The position numbers were made by a program, and so were the translations under genes. This document shows positions 53,438 through 60,796 of a DNA stretch of 64,000 nt, piece by piece. Below the pieces are notes generated by a model. That model did not search any database and was not told the DNA's origin. It saw only the letters and a program-made list of their open reading frames with translations. The stretch is taken from positions 248,001 to 312,000 of the forward strand of contig NZ_LMSS01000003.1 of assembly GCF_001429605.1 (NCBI RefSeq), given 5' to 3'. Numbering within the stretch: the stretch's first letter is position 1; every line of letters begins with the position of its first letter. The DNA comes from Phycicoccus sp. Soil802 (GTDB lineage Bacteria; Actinomycetota; Actinomycetes; Actinomycetales; Dermatophilaceae).

Positions 53438-53510
53438 GCCGGCGTGGCGCAATTGGCAGCGCACTTGTCTTGTAAACAAGGGGTTAGGGGTTCAAGTCCC
53501 CTCGTCGGCT
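53438..53510 (+). tRNA. tRNA-Thr (anticodon UGU)
   Basis: A full cloverleaf of 73 bases: acceptor GCCGGCG pairs with CGTCGGC (one G-T); the anticodon stem CTTGT/ACAAG closes the loop CTTGTAA with anticodon TGT; the T arm AGGGG/CCCCT carries TTCAAGT. CCA is not encoded. The integrase gene ends 21 bp downstream, so this gene is the chromosomal attachment target of the element. Confidence 0.95.
53485..53510 (+). other. Putative attachment site (attL) within the tRNA 3' end
   Basis: The T-arm and acceptor end of tRNA-Thr (GGTTCAAGTCCCCTCGTCGG and the last bases) is the usual identity segment of tRNA-targeting integrases, which keep the tRNA intact. No second copy of AAGTCCCCTCGTCGG was found between here and the right edge, so attR is presumably beyond 64000. 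Confidence 0.55.
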
Positions 53511-53530
53511 CTCTGACCAGCATGTTTTCC

Positions 53531-54748
53531 TCAGGTCCCCTCGCCCTGGGCTACCGACCCACCGCTTTGCCCACCGCTTTCAAGGGTGAAGCGGCGTGGA
53601 TCGACGGCTTCCAGTGCGGCAAGGACTCGCGGGTCGACCGATCTGCGCCCGAGATAGAAGTCGAGAGACATCGACACCCGGGAGTGTCCGAGCTGGTCGG
53701 CGATCATTCGCGGAGAGGCACCTCCGCCGTCGAGGATGGTGGCCATGGTCTTACGCCACGTGTGCGAGGTGACCCACCCGAAGCCGAGTCGATCTCGGGC
53801 GTCAGCCAACTGCCGCGACACGTTCCGGGGATCGCGGAAGCGGCCATCAACGGTGGCGAAGATCGGTTCGTCCGGAGCGACGCCAACCTCGGACCTGCGC
53901 CGCAACATCGCCACGCACCAGGTCGGCAGCAATAGGGCGCGCTGACCCGCCTTTGACTTCGTCGTCTTGCGCAGCAGACCCTGTCCAGTAACCCGAATCA
54001 AGGTCGACGTCACCGTCAGGGCGCCGGTGTCCAGGTCGACTTCGGTCCAAAGTACCGCCAAGGCTTCACCGATCCTGAGGCCGGTGGCCAGAAGGAATGC
54101 CGAAAAGTCCACCAGGTCCTGACGGACGGCAACCTGGTCCCCTGTCATGCCCATAAACCACTTTGCCTGCTCTTCGCTGGTGAGCGCTCGGGGCTCCTTG
54201 GCCCGGGTCCCCTCGAGCCGTTCCAGCTCGCGCGCTGGGTTTGCTGCGATCGCGCCCTGGCGGACCGCGAGGCTCAGGGCGCCTGACACGATCGATCGGC
54301 AGGTGCGTGCGGTAGCGGCGCCGACGTCCTGGTAGACGTCGAGCACGAAACGATCCACGACGGGCGTTGTGAGTTCCCGAAGCCTCAGGCCACCGATCCG
54401 GGGGAGCACATGACCTTCGAGCTGACGTCCGTATGTCTCCACGGTGCCAGGCGATCGTTGCCCTAGGTCGGCCAACCGCTGGATGCGGCTGAGCCAGACC
54501 TCGGCTGCCTCAGAGAGGGTCGAGGCGCCAGTCAGCTGACCGCCAGATCCACGACGCTTCCGTTCCTCGAGCTCGGCCAACAAAGCCTGACGGGCGCCAC
54601 GAGGACTCGGCCCCCACCGCTCCACCTTTCGGACCTTGCCATCGAACCCGCGAAACCGGGCCCGCGCAACTACGGGGCTAGGCCCACCTTTCACGCGCTG
54701 GACCGACACGTCGCCCCACGCTCCCACCTCGAGTTCACGCCGGGCCAC
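53531..54748 (-). CDS. int: Tyrosine recombinase integrase of the element
   Basis: Catalyses insertion into and excision from tRNA-Thr. With the GTG at 54748 it has 405 residues. N-terminal SAM-like domain spans about residues 75-165 (TLSEAAEVWLSRIQRL onward). Catalytic residues are Arg 225 (ATGLRIGEAL), His 329 and Arg 332 (SHTWRKTMA), His 355 (LGHSRVS) and nucleophile Tyr 365 (DFYLGR). The start lies 1 base after the excisionase stop. An open frame runs 78 codons further upstream but reads through the excisionase gene, so it is not used. Confidence 0.93.
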   Translation of the reverse strand: MARRELEVGAWGDVSVQRVKGGPSPVVARARFRGFDGKVRKVERWGPSPRGARQALLAELEERKRRGSGGQLTGASTLSEAAEVWLSRIQRLADLGQRSPGTVETYGRQLEGHVLPRIGGLRLRELTTPVVDRFVLDVYQDVGAATARTCRSIVSGALSLAVRQGAIAANPARELERLEGTRAKEPRALTSEEQAKWFMGMTGDQVAVRQDLVDFSAFLLATGLRIGEALAVLWTEVDLDTGALTVTSTLIRVTGQGLLRKTTKSKAGQRALLLPTWCVAMLRRRSEVGVAPDEPIFATVDGRFRDPRNVSRQLADARDRLGFGWVTSHTWRKTMATILDGGGASPRMIADQLGHSRVSMSLDFYLGRRSVDPRVLAALEAVDPRRFTLESGGQSGGSVAQGEGT

Positions 54749-54749
54749 G

Positions 54750-54938
54750 TCACGCCACCGCGGTGTGACGCTCGAGCCACTCCATGACGGCGCTCTCGCG
54801 GTAGCGAAGGTGACGGCCGACCTTGAACACCGGCGGGCCAGTCCCCTTGAGCCGCCAGTCGTACAGCGTTTGCACTGGAACGCCGAGATACCGCGATACA
54901 TCGTCGACGGTCCACAGCGGGTCATGTCGCATGCACAT
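54750..54938 (-). CDS. xis: Excisionase / MerR-like HTH protein
   Basis: A 62-residue DNA-binding protein: PLWTVDDVSRYLGVPVQTLYDWRLKGTGPPVFKVGRHLRYRESAVMEWLERH, the classic short excisionase HTH of AICEs. AAGGAGGAG lies immediately upstream; ATG codons at 54938 and 54932 both fit, with spacings of 4 and 10 bases. It overlaps the end of the rep gene, so int, xis and rep are translated together. Confidence 0.9.
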   Translation of the reverse strand: MCMRHDPLWTVDDVSRYLGVPVQTLYDWRLKGTGPPVFKVGRHLRYRESAVMEWLERHTAVA

Positions 54939-56478
54939 TGCTCCTCCTTGGTCGTGTACTCCGCCGTTGCTGGGACTTCCATTGCGCGTACTCGCGTGCT
55001 CGGGCGGCCGCTGCCTTGGCCAGGGCGGCGTCACCCGCTGTTTCCCACCCCACGCCGGCGAAGCGCCAATCTCCGATGACAAGCGTGGTTTCGTCCTCGT
55101 CGTCGGCCATGAGCTCGGCTTCGAGCCCAGCCAGATCGACTCGCCTGCCTTCGCGGCGAGCAAGCGCGATGAGGGTCTGCGCGCGACGCCGCGCTCTGCG
55201 AAGTGCTCCGAGAGTGATGGAGTAGCGGCGGGACTTGGTCGCGAAGTGTCCACGGAAACCCAACATGTGGACCCAGTTGGCCATCCGTTCGTAGGCAACG
55301 TCGTGCTCGTCAAGGTCCGAGAGGTTGGCGGTGCTCTGCGCGCAGTCAGCGATGGCGGCCGCAACGGCTTGGATTCGCTGGAGGTGGGGGTTGCTACCGC
55401 CATCGGCGCTCTCCGTGGCCGACTTGGTGGCGTACTTGGCCAGGTAGCCGGCCACCTGCTCGGGTTGCAGAGCCCTTTCCGGGTCGTCCGTACGTCTGCT
55501 AGTTCGGACGCCTCGTGCGTCGACCTGTGATCCGAAACGCAGATCTCGCTCGAGGTTGTCGTCCAACGCTGATGGAGCGGTGAAGCTCACGGCTCGGGCC
55601 GCTTCCTCGATGAGCAGGGCCAACAGTGTCGGGTCGATGGAGGGCGGGCTCGGAGCAAAGCCGGCGTCGCGCTTGGGCCCATCGAGGCGTACGAGGGCGT
55701 GGAAGTGGACGATCCCACGCAGCTGGAACTCGGCGACTTTGGCGTACTGGAGCGTTGCGTGCTTGTTCAGGTCACGCGGCTTGACCCCCAACGTCTTGGC
55801 GATGAGCCGTCGCAGGGTGATCGTGAACCGTCGCCACAGCTCTGGAGCCCACCACTGCCAGACCACGTGGGAGGCGTAGTCGTAGCACTCCCAGCACAAG
55901 GGCTGGCCGAGACCTTGGTCAGTCGGCCGGTGCCGCAGCATGCAGGACATTGAGCGACCGTGCGGGCACTTCGACTTGGTCCCTGAGCGAGGGTGACATC
56001 GCCGTGAGCCGTCCCTCACGCCGTGAACGCTGCCGAATGATGGTGCGGTCAGCGTGGCGAAGACGAGAGGGTTCTCGGCGACCGTGTCCGGAACTCCTTT
56101 GCCGCCCGTGAGTCCGCAGCGGATGAGGTGAAAGGTGTCGGCTGCGTAGACGCGCGAGCAGGAGGGGCATACGTCGGCACGGCGGTTGCCGCAGCGGAGG
56201 TGGAGCACCCCGAACGCTTCATCCAGGGTGCTGAAGGTCTGAAGGGGTTGACCGGTGTCTCGATCGAACGAAGTGCTGCTCCCGCGAACCCGGATCGGGT
56301 TGGTGCAGTAGCCGACCCGAGCTGCCGTGCTCGCCCAGGCGTCGAAGGACCGGTTCGTCAGCCGACGGACGATGTGCTGCTCCTCGGCGACCGACAAGCC
56401 GTTGAGGTCGAGCGCGGCACCATCGCCGTGGCCGGGAAACCGTTCCCTGCCACGTCGTGAGGCCGGGTAGCGATCCAT
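54922..56478 (-). CDS. RepSA-like rolling-circle replication initiator
   Basis: A 518-residue replication initiator of the pSAM2 RepSA type. Cysteines at about 96, 104, 107 and 121, and at 195 and 198, suggest zinc ribbons. The metal-binding HUH-type motif is in GIVHFHALVRLD (His 258, His 260), and the nicking tyrosines are probably in YLAKYATK (345-352). Its start overlaps the WhiB stop by one base. This gene lets the element replicate autonomously after excision. Confidence 0.88.
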   Translation of the reverse strand: MDRYPASRRGRERFPGHGDGAALDLNGLSVAEEQHIVRRLTNRSFDAWASTAARVGYCTNPIRVRGSSTSFDRDTGQPLQTFSTLDEAFGVLHLRCGNRRADVCPSCSRVYAADTFHLIRCGLTGGKGVPDTVAENPLVFATLTAPSFGSVHGVRDGSRRCHPRSGTKSKCPHGRSMSCMLRHRPTDQGLGQPLCWECYDYASHVVWQWWAPELWRRFTITLRRLIAKTLGVKPRDLNKHATLQYAKVAEFQLRGIVHFHALVRLDGPKRDAGFAPSPPSIDPTLLALLIEEAARAVSFTAPSALDDNLERDLRFGSQVDARGVRTSRRTDDPERALQPEQVAGYLAKYATKSATESADGGSNPHLQRIQAVAAAIADCAQSTANLSDLDEHDVAYERMANWVHMLGFRGHFATKSRRYSITLGALRRARRRAQTLIALARREGRRVDLAGLEAELMADDEDETTLVIGDWRFAGVGWETAGDAALAKAAAARAREYAQWKSQQRRSTRPRRSNVHAT

Positions 56479-56858
56479 CAGGCAACCCTGGGGTCCCGGT
56501 GCTCGAGCACGTCGTCAAGGACCGCCCCGAGGCGTTCTCCAGAGGCAAGCCTCAGGAGCAAGGGCCGGCGCTTGCATGCGGGGACCCCTCCCCACACTCC
56601 GAACTCCTCGGCATACACCAGGGACGCGGCGAGACAGGTGCGCCGGACCGGACACGTCTCGCAGATCGTTTCGGCGCGACGAGTCTTGGGGCTGTTGGCG
56701 TCCTCGAACCACAGCCACGAGGAACTGCCGGCGCAAGAACCCTGCGGCTGCCAGCGACTCGCGTCGAGCTCACGGACTGAGAACTCCGGGCCCAGGTCGA
56801 TCCACGGCATTGGGCGTCCGTAACCAACATCTGGGTTTGATCTCGGCGTTCGACTCAT
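56478..56858 (-). CDS. WhiB-family iron-sulfur transcription factor
   Basis: A 126-residue protein with the four cluster-binding cysteines at positions 42, 66, 69 and 75 (QGSC, CETCPVRRTC) and the GVWGG turn at 87-91, followed by a basic tail (CKRRPLLLR). WhiB proteins bind a 4Fe-4S cluster and usually the principal sigma factor. A gene of this family between rep and tra in a coupled operon suggests the element senses redox or physiological state (inference). Confidence 0.9.
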   Translation of the reverse strand: MSRTPRSNPDVGYGRPMPWIDLGPEFSVRELDASRWQPQGSCAGSSSWLWFEDANSPKTRRAETICETCPVRRTCLAASLVYAEEFGVWGGVPACKRRPLLLRLASGERLGAVLDDVLEHRDPRVA

Positions 56859-58303
56859 GCGACTTCTCCTCCCTCGACGGCCGCGACGGCAGCCAAACGG
56901 ACCGGTGTGGGTCTAGGCCAACTGGTGGCGAGTTCGGCGATGTCCGCGTCGGTCAGGTACGACGCGCGCACCCGCCGTTGAGCACGGGTTCCCTCCACCC
57001 GCACGTACGCGACTCCCGGAGTCAGCTCGCTGATGTGATCGGCGGTTGCACCGAGGTCTCGAGCGCCGTCTCCCAGGACCATGTCGACCTGAATCGGGTT
57101 GTCCAAGCGCATGGCAATCCGGGTGGGGAACAGGTCCCGCCAGACGACGACGTCCTTGCCGGGATCTTGAACGGCTGCCAGCACCGTGATGCCGCAGGCT
57201 CGGCCTTGCGTGAGGAGAAGTCCGAGCGCCTGCTCGATGCGTCGAACGATGGCGCGCTCAGCGAAGGCCGTCAATGTGGCCAGCTCGTCGACGAGGAGGA
57301 GAATGTGGGGCGATGCCGGAGTTGCAGCGTGGGTGCGCACCCCCAGCTCCGCCAACTCCCTCGCCCGGACGTCCTTGAGGGTCACGAGGTGTTCCAGTGC
57401 CAGGCACATCTGCTCGGCGCTGCCGTCTTCGAAACGCGCGAACAGAGGGAGTCCAGGACGCAGTTCCATGCCGCCCTTGGGGTCGATGGCCCAGACCTGC
57501 AATGACCCGGCCGCGATCGCAGGGGCTGTGCCGTTGAGGAGGGACCAAAGTACGGATCCCTTACCGGCGCCCGTTGCCCCCGCGACTAGTACATGGGTGC
57601 CGAGCAAGCGCAGGTACCAAACCTCCCCGTCCTCGTGTCGACCTACTGCGACGGCCGCCAGGTCGACCTGCCCCTCGGGTGCCGAAGGACGGATCACCGG
57701 TGCAAGCACATCCCGGCGGTGCAACTCGAGGAAGACTCGGCCCGGGCGGTCCTCAACGACTCTTGCTTCTCGACACCTAAGGGCATGCGCGAGGCCATCG
57801 CACTGTGCAGCCACGTGCGAGGGGGTGAGCCCAGCGGGGAGGCTGAGCTGCAGGGTGTGCACTCCCGCCCTCGTGACGCGGACCCGCCGGATCCTCGGCA
57901 GCCGAGACTGGGCTGCGCGGTGGCGGTTGAACTGGTGGTCATAGGCAACCAGTCCGTTGCGTGACGCGGCCTTGGCCCATCTTGAGCGGTACCAAGGTGC
58001 GGCGGCGACCGAGGCGAGTCGCGGGTGCGCGATGTTGGCGAATGACCTCGGCGCCGCGAGTCGCCACGTGATCAGCGCCAGCAGGACTCCGATTGCCGTC
58101 CAGATGAGGAACCGCGATCCCAGAACGTATCCCTCGGTTGCGAGCCCCACGGCGATGATCGCCGGCACTGGGTTTCGGGTTGCAGCGAGGAGGATGGCGC
58201 CGATGGCGCGAACGAGCGCCCAGCCGAGTCGGACGATCGCCTCGAGAACGATCGACAGAGGATCGTCACTGTCGAACATGGGACGAGAGGGGGAGTGATC
58301 CAT
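56855..58303 (-). CDS. FtsK/SpoIIIE-type DNA transfer ATPase (TraSA/TraB-like)
   Basis: Moves double-stranded DNA between mycelial or paired cells. It has 482 residues from ATG 58303. Two N-terminal membrane segments (about residues 45-80) precede the FtsK domain, with Walker A GATGAGKGS at 242-250, IDPKGGMEL, and Walker B HILLLVDELATL. ATGA overlap couples it to whiB. This single-protein transfer system is the hallmark of AICEs and differs from type IV secretion. Confidence 0.9.
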   Translation of the reverse strand: MDHSPSRPMFDSDDPLSIVLEAIVRLGWALVRAIGAILLAATRNPVPAIIAVGLATEGYVLGSRFLIWTAIGVLLALITWRLAAPRSFANIAHPRLASVAAAPWYRSRWAKAASRNGLVAYDHQFNRHRAAQSRLPRIRRVRVTRAGVHTLQLSLPAGLTPSHVAAQCDGLAHALRCREARVVEDRPGRVFLELHRRDVLAPVIRPSAPEGQVDLAAVAVGRHEDGEVWYLRLLGTHVLVAGATGAGKGSVLWSLLNGTAPAIAAGSLQVWAIDPKGGMELRPGLPLFARFEDGSAEQMCLALEHLVTLKDVRARELAELGVRTHAATPASPHILLLVDELATLTAFAERAIVRRIEQALGLLLTQGRACGITVLAAVQDPGKDVVVWRDLFPTRIAMRLDNPIQVDMVLGDGARDLGATADHISELTPGVAYVRVEGTRAQRRVRASYLTDADIAELATSWPRPTPVRLAAVAAVEGGEVA

Positions 58304-58304
58304 G

Positions 58305-58556
58305 TCAGGACCCCGCGCCCGCGACACTCGCCACCGCGTTGCCGATGAGCATGGCGGCCTCGCCCATGTGACGCTCGACCTGAAGGAGGTGTTCGTCGAG
58401 GTCTCGATCGGGGCAGCTGTGGAGCTGATCCCTCAGCCTGGACTGCCGACCGTAGAGATCTTCCTGCTCGCGCCACAGCGACTGAAGCCGCCGATGTACC
58501 TCGTCGGGCGCGACTCCGACCGCATTGGACCACTGCCTCGCCTGCCCGCCGCGCAC
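58305..58556 (-). CDS. Small element protein A
   Basis: An 83-residue helical protein of unknown function (VHRRLQSLWREQEDLYGRQSRLRDQLHSCPDRDLDEHLLQVERHMGEAAMLIG). GTG start 1 base after the upstream stop; stop 1 base before the tra ATG. Position matches the small spd-like genes of AICEs, but similarity was not recognised. Confidence 0.7.
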   Translation of the reverse strand: MRGGQARQWSNAVGVAPDEVHRRLQSLWREQEDLYGRQSRLRDQLHSCPDRDLDEHLLQVERHMGEAAMLIGNAVASVAGAGS

Positions 58557-58557
58557 C

Positions 58558-58806
58558 TCACCTCTCCCTTCTCATGTCGGAGAGCGCCTCGGTCAGCCGG
58601 TCCCCCGCTGCACCGAGGGCACGACTGGCGGAGCTGATCGAGGCGAGCATTCCTTCGTCTGGAGCATCGGAGAGGCTCACGCGCAGCTTCGTCAGTTCCG
58701 CGTGAAGCTCCTCCACAAGACGGACCCGTGACGAGAGTGCCCATGGCAGCTCAAGTTCCCCAACGCCGAGGGCTTCCGCCCACGCAACCATGTCGATGGG
58801 GCGCAC
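58558..58806 (-). CDS. Small element protein B
   Basis: An 82-residue acidic helical protein (AEALGVGELELPWALSSRVRLVEELHAELTKLRVSL...). GTG start 1 base after the stop of the Pra-like gene. Function unknown; part of the coupled operon. Confidence 0.7.
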   Translation of the reverse strand: MRPIDMVAWAEALGVGELELPWALSSRVRLVEELHAELTKLRVSLSDAPDEGMLASISSASRALGAAGDRLTEALSDMRRER

Positions 58807-58807
58807 G

Positions 58808-59233
58808 TCAGGCAGCCTTAGTCGGGCTCTGCTGGGCTGTGGAGCCGGACTTCACCGGTCCCATTGCGTCTGCGCGGTAGGACCAAGCGATTCGCGAGAA
58901 GTCCTCGTTGACCTTCTCGACGTAGGGGAGGGCGGACAGGCCGTGGAACATCACGGGAGTGATGGGTCCGCCGCTCTCGTTGGCCGGCGGCACTGGCTGG
59001 ACTTTGGCCAGGAACTTCACCGTGACGGTCCGTGCATTCTTTGACGCGTCCGGATCCAGGTCGAGCACGTCGACCTGCCAGATCGGGAGGCCCGAGTCGA
59101 CGTCAACCTGCTGCACCTTGTTCTCCCGTGTCGACCGCTCGAAGTCCGAAACCGGGGTCACGGGCGAGACGATGAAGGCCCCGTGGGGGAACACCTCGTC
59201 GTGGGAGATCTTGAAGCGCTTCGCGATGGCCAT
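58808..59233 (-). CDS. Pra-like activator of element replication, integration and excision
   Basis: A 141-residue protein from ATG 59233, with GGAAGGAACG just upstream. Its sequence (FPHGAFIVSPVTPVSDFERSTRENKVQQVDVDSGLPIWQVDVLDLDPDASKNARTVTVKFLAKVQPVPP, then PVMFHGLSALPYV and RIAWSYRADAM) follows the pattern of actinomycete element proteins annotated as replication, integration and excision activators. It is the first gene of the operon behind two operators. The assignment rests on remembered family pattern, not a search. Confidence 0.7.
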   Translation of the reverse strand: MAIAKRFKISHDEVFPHGAFIVSPVTPVSDFERSTRENKVQQVDVDSGLPIWQVDVLDLDPDASKNARTVTVKFLAKVQPVPPANESGGPITPVMFHGLSALPYVEKVNEDFSRIAWSYRADAMGPVKSGSTAQQSPTKAA

Positions 59234-59266
59234 GATCGTTCCTTCCGTATTCGCAAACAGCGCCTT

Positions 59267-59305
59267 ATGCACTGCTGCATGACTTTACTATGCATTAGTG
59301 CATAG
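59267..59305. promoter_or_regulatory. Paired palindromic operators at the Pra operon promoter
   Basis: ATGCA-CTGC-TGCAT (59267-59280) and CTATGCA-TTAG-TGCATAG (59288-59305) are both perfect inverted repeats with 4-bp spacers; centres are 23 bp apart. They lie in an AT-rich stretch before the Pra-like gene and just before a small plus-strand frame. In pSAM2 the pra promoter is repressed by KorSA; no such repressor gene is visible here. Confidence 0.75.
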
Positions 59306-59308
59306 GAC

Positions 59309-59569
59309 ATGTCCACCCTTTGTGCCTTGCACTGCAGCCGATGGCCAGATCAGCCACAGCGGCGGCGGTGGTCCCAGGCGAACTCACCAGCTGCCGAGCT
59401 GGAGGGCGACTTGCTGCCGTGGGCTGACCGCAAACAGCTGAAGGCGATCCAGAAACGCGTACGCCACTACCACCAACTGTTCGCCGGTTGGTGGGAGAAG
59501 AACCACGGACAGTCGTCACCTTGCTCGCGTGAGACGGCGTCTGGGCGAGACGGACGCGGCGCGCTGTGA
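59309..59569 (+). CDS. Possible small gene divergent from the Pra operon
   Basis: An 86-residue frame with a protein-like centre (ELEGDLLPWADRKQLKAIQKRVRHYHQLFAGWWEKNHGQ) and plausible codon use there; its ends look random. TAGGAC precedes the ATG by few bases. It lies in the otherwise gene-free 59234-59752 interval and could be a small divergent regulator or a gene remnant. Confidence 0.35.
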   Translation: MSTLCALHCSRWPDQPQRRRWSQANSPAAELEGDLLPWADRKQLKAIQKRVRHYHQLFAGWWEKNHGQSSPCSRETASGRDGRGAL

Positions 59570-59687: not shown

Positions 59688-59738
59688 TTGACTCATCCGT
59701 GGACAGCATTCACACTAGCAATGTGAACGTCATTCACA
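59688..59738 (+). promoter_or_regulatory. Promoter and TTCACA/TGTGAA operator array before parA
   Basis: TTGACT at 59688-59693 resembles a -35 element. Over the expected -10 position lie three alternating half sites: TTCACA (59709), TGTGAA (59722) and TTCACA (59733), forming two overlapping inverted repeats. They probably bind the HTH of the downstream HTH-ParA protein, giving autoregulation, or serve as a centromere. Confidence 0.6.
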
Positions 59739-59752
59739 GATCAGGAGGGGCA

Positions 59753-60796
59753 GTGGAAACCGAGCTTGTCGGGCTCTACGAGGTGGCGGAGATGGCCCGG
59801 GTGAGCCGGACCGTCGTGTCGAACTGGCGGGCCCGCGACCCCGTGTTCCCCGCGCCGGTGGCCGACCTGAAGTCGGGTCCAGTTTTCAACGCCGAGCAGG
59901 TGCAGCGGTACCTCAAGAGACGAAGGAAAGGTTCTATGGCGCACGTTATCTCGACAATCAACCTCAAGGGGGGAGTCGGCAAGACCACCATCACGATGGC
60001 CTTGGCGGAGATCCTGTCCGGCGAGTTCCGCAAGTCAGTCCTTGTGGTGGATCTGGACCCCCAGACCAACTTGACCACCGCAATGATCGGTGAGAAAGCC
60101 TGGCTCAAGCTGAATGCCAATGGTCACACCCTCGCGACACTGTTTGAGGACGCACTGCGACCTGCCCACGAACCGGCAGAATTCGACCTCGACCTCACTC
60201 GGCAAAAGAACGCGTCTTCGGTGAGCGACGTGCGCCGGCTCGACCTGCTGCCGGGCTCGCTGGACCTCATCGCGGTCCAGGACCGGCTGGGCACCATGTC
60301 CTCCGGCCGCTTCCACTCAGCGACCCCCACCGCTCTGCTCCGGCGAGCGGTCAGCCCGATCATTGACGAGTACGACTACGTCCTAATCGACTGCCCGCCC
60401 AACCTCGGTCTGGTCACCCTTAACGGCCTGCGGATGTCCGATGGCTACATCATTCCGACGATCCCGGACGTGATGTCGACCTACGGCATTGACCAGATCC
60501 AGCGACATATCGCGGAGTTTGCCGACGACATCGACCAGACGATAGCCGAGCTCGGGATCATCGTCTCGAAATTCCAGGCCAACTCCACCGTGCACGTCAA
60601 CACGGTGAACCGTCTGCGCCGGAAGAAGGCGTATCCGCCGGTCTTTTCGACGGTTATCCCGCAGTCGAACGCTATCGCCGAGGCCGCCGACTCCGTCAAA
60701 CGAGGAACTCTCCGCCAGAAGTGGGGCTACCAGGGCCAGTTCAACGCATTGCTCGACCTCACCAAGGAGTTCAAGGCAGCAGTGGAGGCAGCATGA
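59753..60796 (+). CDS. HTH-ParA fusion partition/regulatory ATPase
   Basis: A 347-residue protein from GTG 59753 (AGGAGGGG upstream). Residues 1-58 form a MerR/excisionase-like HTH (LVGLYEVAEMARVSRTVVSNWRARDPVFPAPV, AEQVQRYLKRRRKG). Residues 62-347 form a complete ParA ATPase with deviant Walker A LKGGVGKTT (72-79), VLVVDLDPQTNLT and VLIDCPPNLG. An internal ATG at 59936 (residue 62) has its own AAGGAAAGG ribosome site 5 bp upstream, so ParA alone may also be made. It should stabilise the element or regulate it. Confidence 0.9.
   Translation: METELVGLYEVAEMARVSRTVVSNWRARDPVFPAPVADLKSGPVFNAEQVQRYLKRRRKGSMAHVISTINLKGGVGKTTITMALAEILSGEFRKSVLVVDLDPQTNLTTAMIGEKAWLKLNANGHTLATLFEDALRPAHEPAEFDLDLTRQKNASSVSDVRRLDLLPGSLDLIAVQDRLGTMSSGRFHSATPTALLRRAVSPIIDEYDYVLIDCPPNLGLVTLNGLRMSDGYIIPTIPDVMSTYGIDQIQRHIAEFADDIDQTIAELGIIVSKFQANSTVHVNTVNRLRRKKAYPPVFSTVIPQSNAIAEAADSVKRGTLRQKWGYQGQFNALLDLTKEFKAAVEAA

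Follow-up and report, generated by a model that had tools for sequence, protein, structure and literature searches.

Why should a gene for a WhiB-type regulator lie between the transfer gene and the replication gene of an integrative element? The question is raised by a 64,000-nucleotide stretch of the Phycicoccus sp. Soil802 genome (contig NZ_LMSS01000003.1, positions 248,001 to 312,000), hereafter the window, which corresponds to G000:C3:248001-312000, G000 being the host genome; operon coordinates are given on the window scale. Beside a tRNA-Thr gene the window carries eight minus-strand genes, pra, s1, s2, tra, whiB, rep, xis and int (53531-59233), which overlap or are one base apart and run toward the tRNA gene. 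They form the mobility operon of an element integrated at tRNA-Thr, and the observed packing is confirmed as real. Here, we describe how often a WhiB-type gene occupies this slot in related elements, and we consider what the protein may do there.

The family sample comprised 149 genomes, 51 of which had RepSA matches, and 94 RepSA places were read (75 in a main round and 19 added); a contig-end fragment (G123:C219) and a match below the cut-off (G128:C1) were left out. For the order and the phylum samples, 40 places outside the family were read in each, and weaker or contig-edge rows were left out. Counting with an iterated custom profile, we found a WhiB-type gene between tra and rep at 44/55 tra-bearing family places, including two (L256 and L269) that were taken as tra-bearing on a tra fragment running off the contig start; 11/55 had none. 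Among RepSA family places without tra the count was 0/39; in seven of these places (L082, L084, L120, L254, L255, L257 and L272) the contig breaks off close to rep. With the Pfam Whib cut-off the family count is 36/55, and eight places (L103, L107, L109, L111, L112, L133, L256 and L269) rest solely on copies under that cut-off. Outside the family, whiB was found at 3/33 tra-bearing places of the order sample, two of them in one genome and both under the Pfam cut-off (L190 and L191), and at 0/34 of the phylum sample. The sequence-only reading had placed whiB between tra and rep, outside the described core, which is supported; yet the arrangement is common in the family sample and rare beyond it. 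The same reading had suggested that WhiB could tie excision or transfer to redox state or sigma factor occupancy. Because rep-xis-int elements without tra are also without whiB, the gene goes with transfer rather than with excision, and the 39 rep places that lack both genes disfavour a role in excision control. The shared slot in many related elements suggests that the WhiB-type gene serves DNA transfer. When presence of whiB was mapped for 111 of the 116 tra-bearing places, it required 10 changes on the tra tree and 12 on the rep tree, seven being forced in both, so that the two trees differ only slightly. Separately, in L098, L134 and L265 the slot contains two different WhiB-like (Wbl) genes in tandem.

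The junctions of the operon were reread, and the earlier claim that every gene from pra to int overlaps the next or lies one base from it is correct. One-base gaps, read from the sequence, separate pra from s1, s1 from s2 and xis from int. The genes s2 and tra overlap by 23 nt, or have a one-base gap if the inner ATG of tra is used, and tra and whiB overlap by 4 nt (ATGA), whiB and rep by 1 nt and rep and xis by 17 nt. The gene order is identical in Pedococcus bigeumensis (L007), where the operon proteins are 91-98% identical; relatives of Rep occur in genera that include Pedococcus, Terrabacter, Intrasporangium and Phycicoccus. A start codon that overlaps the tra stop by 4 nt was found in 26/42 loci (21 ATGA, 4 GTGA and 1 TTGA), comprising 20 of type A and 6 of type C, types that are defined below. 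Because the order is kept in P. bigeumensis and the 4-nt overlap recurs, the packed arrangement is not a product of chance. The sequence-only reading had also spoken of one transcript; the tight packing and the one recognisable promoter before pra agree with this, and the single transcript itself is an expectation drawn from them.

The WhiB of this element has the four cysteines and the GVWGG motif of the Wbl family, and its relatives in the PDB are WhiB3, WhiB7, WhiB, WhiB4 and WhiB1. The Wbl genes could be divided into type A (24 loci, this element included), type B (7) and type C (12 copies with a G[WF]WAG-like motif), with one further copy in L098. All 24 type A proteins match Pfam Whib at E up to 1e-5 and all 7 of type B are over the cut-off, while of the 12 type C copies four are over it, six are under it and two (L107 and L109) have no match. 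Of 45 profile matches, one of which lies outside the tra-rep slot (L096), 44 show the four-cysteine spacing, the exception being the first L134 copy; the copies in L107 and L124 look degenerate. The ratio of nonsynonymous to synonymous substitution rates (dN/dS) is 0.02-0.17 for whiB (7 pairs) and 0.08-0.17 for rep (6 pairs), with dS above 1 in two pairs, and whiB is under purifying selection. In a Wbl tree of few columns and many open forks, from which rows L079, L107, L124 and L096 and the chromosomal row L235 were dropped, 0/41 rows from actinomycete integrative and conjugative elements (AICEs) fall inside the chromosomal clades that we take, from class motifs, to be WhiB1, 2, 3, 4 and 7. 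The AICE rows do not form one clade, and type B and one L098 copy fall among the chromosomal classes, within none of them. Besides five chromosomal Wbl genes, the host carries two within such elements. Type A WhiB is found with both deep Rep clades, and one Rep clade is shared by L101 and L105 (type A) and L093 and L094 (type B).

Between 53400 and 59900 a single promoter-like site was found, before pra (0.3 expected). The two candidate operator dyads at this promoter (Table 1) have no further counterpart in the window when up to 2 mismatches are allowed, and two sites occurred in 0/100 shuffles. The dyad pair is also present before pra in five relatives, with a spacing of 23-25 bases, and the six pra promoters can be aligned, all but that of L125 showing a clear TTGAC-like -35 element. 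Across the 116 tra-bearing loci of the main round, the dyad sites at up to 1 mismatch were 12 before pra and 2 beside an XRE gene (L068 and L140), with none elsewhere. In the present element, too, one dyad lies beside its XRE-DUF5753 gene, which belongs to the same island. Among whiB elements that also bear a gene for a VirB4-type ATPase, an XRE-DUF5753 gene was found in 6/6 with dyads and 0/13 without (exact test, 3.7e-5, independence assumed); in G094 and G136 the gene came to light only in this later search. This co-occurrence with the promoter dyads makes XRE-DUF5753 the better explanation of promoter control, and judged from these sequence patterns this protein is more likely than WhiB to be the operon switch. 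WhiB as an operator-binding switch is not our leading idea, as one WhiB type stands with different operator modules: type A is found with TATGCA dyads and an XRE gene, or with divergent helix-turn-helix (HTH) and NUDIX genes (L071 and L074). In some dyad-less elements the divergent regulators, named by eye, are GntR-like (L073, L093 and L103) or HTH with NUDIX (L071 and L074). NUDIX-type genes, also named by eye, lie upstream of pra in L071, L074 and L088 and resemble the pSAM2 NUDIX protein Pif.

We propose the following working, tentatively, since as a whole it falls a little short of an even chance and is built on sequence comparison. The XRE-DUF5753 protein of the island would bind the two dyads at the pra promoter and the one beside its own gene and would keep the operon off. 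Once repression is lifted, one transcript would provide Pra, Tra, WhiB, Rep, Xis and Int together. WhiB, predicted to be translationally coupled to tra, would be an effector of the transfer state and not the switch of the operon. It probably binds region 4 of the primary sigma factor, as WhiB1, WhiB3 and WhiB7 do according to excerpts of PMC6282962, and would thus shift transcription in the transferring cell. Because the type of WhiB is not tied to the promoter module, we lean toward host promoters as more likely targets than those of the element. This target is supposed, as is any redox link, for which the four cysteines are the sole relevant feature seen.

Several observations weigh against this proposal. 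The place counts are phylogenetically non-independent, and some of the 11 tra-bearing family elements without whiB have Tra of the same clade (L073, L088 and L135). These three are natural examples of the whiB-less relatives that the sequence-only reading had named as a refuting condition, although by themselves they do not bear on excision. In Mantel tests on 22 of the 24 type A loci, WhiB distance gave 0.124 against Tra (reached by 310/2000), 0.044 against Rep (483/2000) and 0.047 against Int (484/2000), none of them significant, and a co-diverging tra-whiB module within type A is therefore unsupported. The triplet before GVWGG is EEF, not the EPW or EPY of WhiB7 and WhiB3, and WhiB5 seems not to bind SigA (excerpts of PMC6282962). 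The link between dyads and XRE gene is a correlation; the dyad precedes the XRE gene only with a chosen inner start (3/3 elements read at the XRE 5' end) and lies inside the longest open reading frame, and the XRE frame of G152 carries an in-frame stop.

The fourth Mantel comparison bears on a different function. WhiB distance follows that of Pra best (0.314, reached by 16/2000 in four comparisons), and as WhiB divergence follows Pra only, a role internal to the element may be favoured. WhiB would then be a feedback regulator that, with Pra and sigma-A, activates or shuts the pra promoter or an operon resembling a type IV secretion system (T4SS). That whiB is encoded in the operon fits this, as does the view, in excerpts of PMC6282962, that Wbl proteins need partners for site specificity. 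However, a single WhiB type is combined with various promoter and repressor modules, and type C elements keep WhiB with no VirB4 seen near them, and we consider such feedback possible but unlikely.

The protein could also act outward, as a host-takeover or exclusion factor that disturbs WhiB2-type septation control in the donor or the recipient. The model for this is phage WhiBTM4, which lowers whiB2 expression and whose overexpression resembles whiB2 depletion (excerpts of PMC6282962); EEF resembles the ERF of WhiB2, and 395 phage records hold WhiB relatives. The AICE Wbls, however, do not cluster with chromosomal WhiB2, and the 30 phage matches listed are just 31-38% identical, so that this role appears improbable. 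WhiBTM4 and the Wbls of SCP1 (excerpts of PMC6282962) are likewise Wbl regulators on mobile elements, but here, at such low identity to the phage proteins, the gene is recurrent and overlaps tra. The plasmid WhiB of highest identity, from Corynebacterium occultum, is 48.5% identical over half of the query and has neither tra nor rep as a neighbour. Phages and plasmids commonly carry Wbl genes, one Frankia AICE has a WhiB (excerpts of PMC3218068) and two slot copies look degenerate, all of which would suit cargo that landed in the operon by accident. Against accident stand the identical slot in four fifths of the tra-bearing family places, the several Wbl lineages found in it, the 4-nt overlap with tra and purifying selection, which together make it very improbable. 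The proposal that WhiB is an effector of the transfer state behind an XRE-silenced operon thus remains the one we prefer.

The operon is part of a larger island. The 3' 38 bases of tRNA-Thr, of which the first copy is at C3:301474, recur with 3 mismatches at G000:C3:340997-341034 (92997-93034 on the window scale, outside the window), bounding an island of 39.5 kb; no other copy was found in C3:299000-371000 at up to 9 mismatches. The sequence that adjoins tRNA-Thr in the relative G004 is picked up again immediately after the repeat in G006. In G000, the sequence shared with G004 downstream of tRNA-Thr resumes only at about C3:368.5 kb, and the right border is for this reason set by the repeat alone. 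Some 27 kb (G000:C3:341035-368511) lie between the island repeat and this resumption. Besides the operon, the island carries genes for ParA, a major facilitator superfamily transporter, XRE-DUF5753, a cluster with a VirB4-type ATPase and an NlpC/P60 hydrolase, and DNA-modification, restriction-like, sugar and nucleoside genes. C5 DNA methylase, Vsr, Mrr-helicase, HATPase and GmrSD-type genes lie at G000:C3:321883-330778 (L005:10884-19779), where PADLOC gave matches to models for methyltransferase, Vsr, type IV restriction and NsnA, among others. A search for a tandem-repeat transfer site gave only three short arrays, and such a site was rejected. Elsewhere in the host genome, the RepSA places C7:125533 and C6:228105 have neither tra nor whiB, while C2:295737 has both, with a VirB4 gene 14 kb away.

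The VirB4-type cluster affects how the element is classified. The element has the AICE core, namely a tyrosine integrase at a tRNA 3' end, a PF20199 rep and a PF01580 tra. Its VirB4-type ATPase matches PF12846 (E 6e-24) and NCBIfam TcpF at E 7e-20, below cut-off. Such an ATPase is a mark of T4SS-type integrative and conjugative elements (ICEs) in excerpts of PMC3218068, as are a MOBF relaxase and a VirD4-type coupling protein. Family matches in the cluster are limited to VirB4 and NlpC/P60; the other putative T4SS parts have no Pfam support and were named from gene order and hydrophobicity. A scan of part of the island open reading frames found no MOBF relaxase, dedicated relaxase or VirD4-type coupling protein among the proteins scanned. 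VirB4 was sought in 62 chosen genomes, and by comparison of positions by eye 19 family elements with whiB, this one included, have the gene on the strand of rep and about 9-18 kb upstream of it; 15 are of type A or A-like and 4 of type B. Against a clean link between VirB4 and whiB stand 10 type A elements of the main round and all of type C, which have no VirB4 match nearby, and two whiB-less tra loci that may have one: L085 in G069, at 22 kb, and, in the order sample, L220 (G586:C7), at 19 kb on the same strand. Among the selected stretches compared, the VirB4 neighbour set is whole in G006 and present in part in L013 (the same place as L074), L097, L126 and L141. Because of the VirB4-type cluster inside it, and of 18 further whiB elements with VirB4 nearby, 'AICE' describes only part of the island; the sequence-only label 'AICE-like' was right for the core and incomplete for the 39.5 kb, whose VirB4-type cluster lies outside the window. 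ICEBs1 and Tn916-type ICEs and clostridial Tcp systems, which we take to share an FtsK-like protein, a VirB4-type ATPase, an NlpC/P60 hydrolase and small membrane proteins, serve here as a lead only; in contrast to them, no dedicated relaxase was found among the proteins scanned, and the other T4SS parts are without Pfam support. One could imagine a class of elements in which the RepSA initiator is the relaxase, the FtsK-like Tra is the coupling protein for a VirB4-type T4SS, and an element-specific Wbl made together with Tra resets sigma-A transcription in the transferring cell; we regard this class as doubtful.

Among the other operon products, Pra has no Pfam, NCBIfam or PHROG match. In tblastn it is 38.7% identical to the product of a plasmid gene described as 'plasmid replication, integration and excision activator' (E 1e-16), and 36.7% identical to a 'transcriptional regulator' encoded on the Micromonospora rosaria plasmid NC_006910; its structure model is poor (predicted local distance difference test, pLDDT, 43) and was left uninterpreted. 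The small genes s1 and s2 vary from 0 to 3 copies in relatives, and the model of s1 is a confident helical hairpin (pLDDT 92) with no PDB match at E up to 0.001. Tra has two N-terminal hydrophobic segments and matches FtsK in the PDB (E 4e-9) and, more weakly, a 'DNA translocase coupling protein' (E 7e-4). Rep also matches PF23343 at E 8e-6, below the cut-off of that family.

Table 1 Features of the element at tRNA-Thr, on the window scale unless a contig is named.
Feature	Position	Strand	Remarks
tRNA-Thr (TGT), integration site	53438-53511	+	3' 38 bases = 53474-53511
int, tyrosine integrase	53531-54748	-	Phage_integrase PF00589; GTG start chosen, where the L007 alignment begins
xis, excisionase-like	54750-54938	-	HTH_17 PF12728, TIGR01764
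rep, RepSA-type replication initiator	54922-56478	-	RepSA PF20199, E 2e-151
whiB, Wbl protein, type A	56478-56858	-	Whib PF02467, E 1e-16; four cysteines, EEF-GVWGG
tra, FtsK/SpoIIIE-type translocase	56855-58327 (inner ATG 58303)	-	FtsK_SpoIIIE PF01580, E 9e-11
s2, small gene	58305-58556	-	Paralogue of s1, 26% identical
s1, small gene	58558-58806	-	Predicted helical hairpin
pra-like activator gene, first operon gene	58808-59233	-	tblastn against annotated plasmids
Candidate operator dyad TATGCA-N4-TGCATA	59266-59281	.	1 mismatch
Sigma-70-like operon promoter TGGACA-17-CATAGT	59287-59315	-	Aligned with 5 relatives
Candidate operator dyad TATGCA-N4-TGCATA	59289-59304	.	Perfect; in promoter spacer, over -10
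ParA-type ATPase, N-terminal HTH	59699-60796	+	PF13614; weak Xis-profile match; divergent, within island
XRE-DUF5753 gene	C3:312243-313127		Just beyond window, inside island
T4SS-like cluster	G000:C3:313132-320648 (L005:2133-9649)		Outside window; VirB4/TcpF-type ATPase, NlpC/P60 hydrolase, small and multi-segment membrane proteins

The closest known systems are AICEs of the pSAM2 and pMR2 kind, especially the Frankia pra-tra-rep-xis-int family, which according to excerpts of PMC3218068 have in common with this element a tyrosine integrase at a tRNA 3' end, xis, a RepSA-type rep, an FtsK-type tra and pra. The present element differs from them by the WhiB between tra and rep, by two small paralogous genes and by a 39.5 kb island with a VirB4-type cluster, and it has XRE-DUF5753 and paired dyads where pSAM2 has the GntR protein KorSA. 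The Frankia AICE FeuI6863 likewise encodes a WhiB-like factor, for which the available passages of PMC3218068 give neither position nor conservation; in a literature search of limited coverage, excerpts of this paper were the only source to link WhiB with AICEs.

Wbl proteins were already known as host regulators and from phages and plasmids. Here a Wbl gene recurrently overlaps one for conjugation, which provides a natural series, with elements that have tra and whiB, tra alone or neither, for probing its role in transfer. The XRE-dyad pair offers a concrete way into how such elements get switched on. With a VirB4-type cluster next to an AICE core, the question arises whether some elements filed as AICEs transfer via a T4SS.

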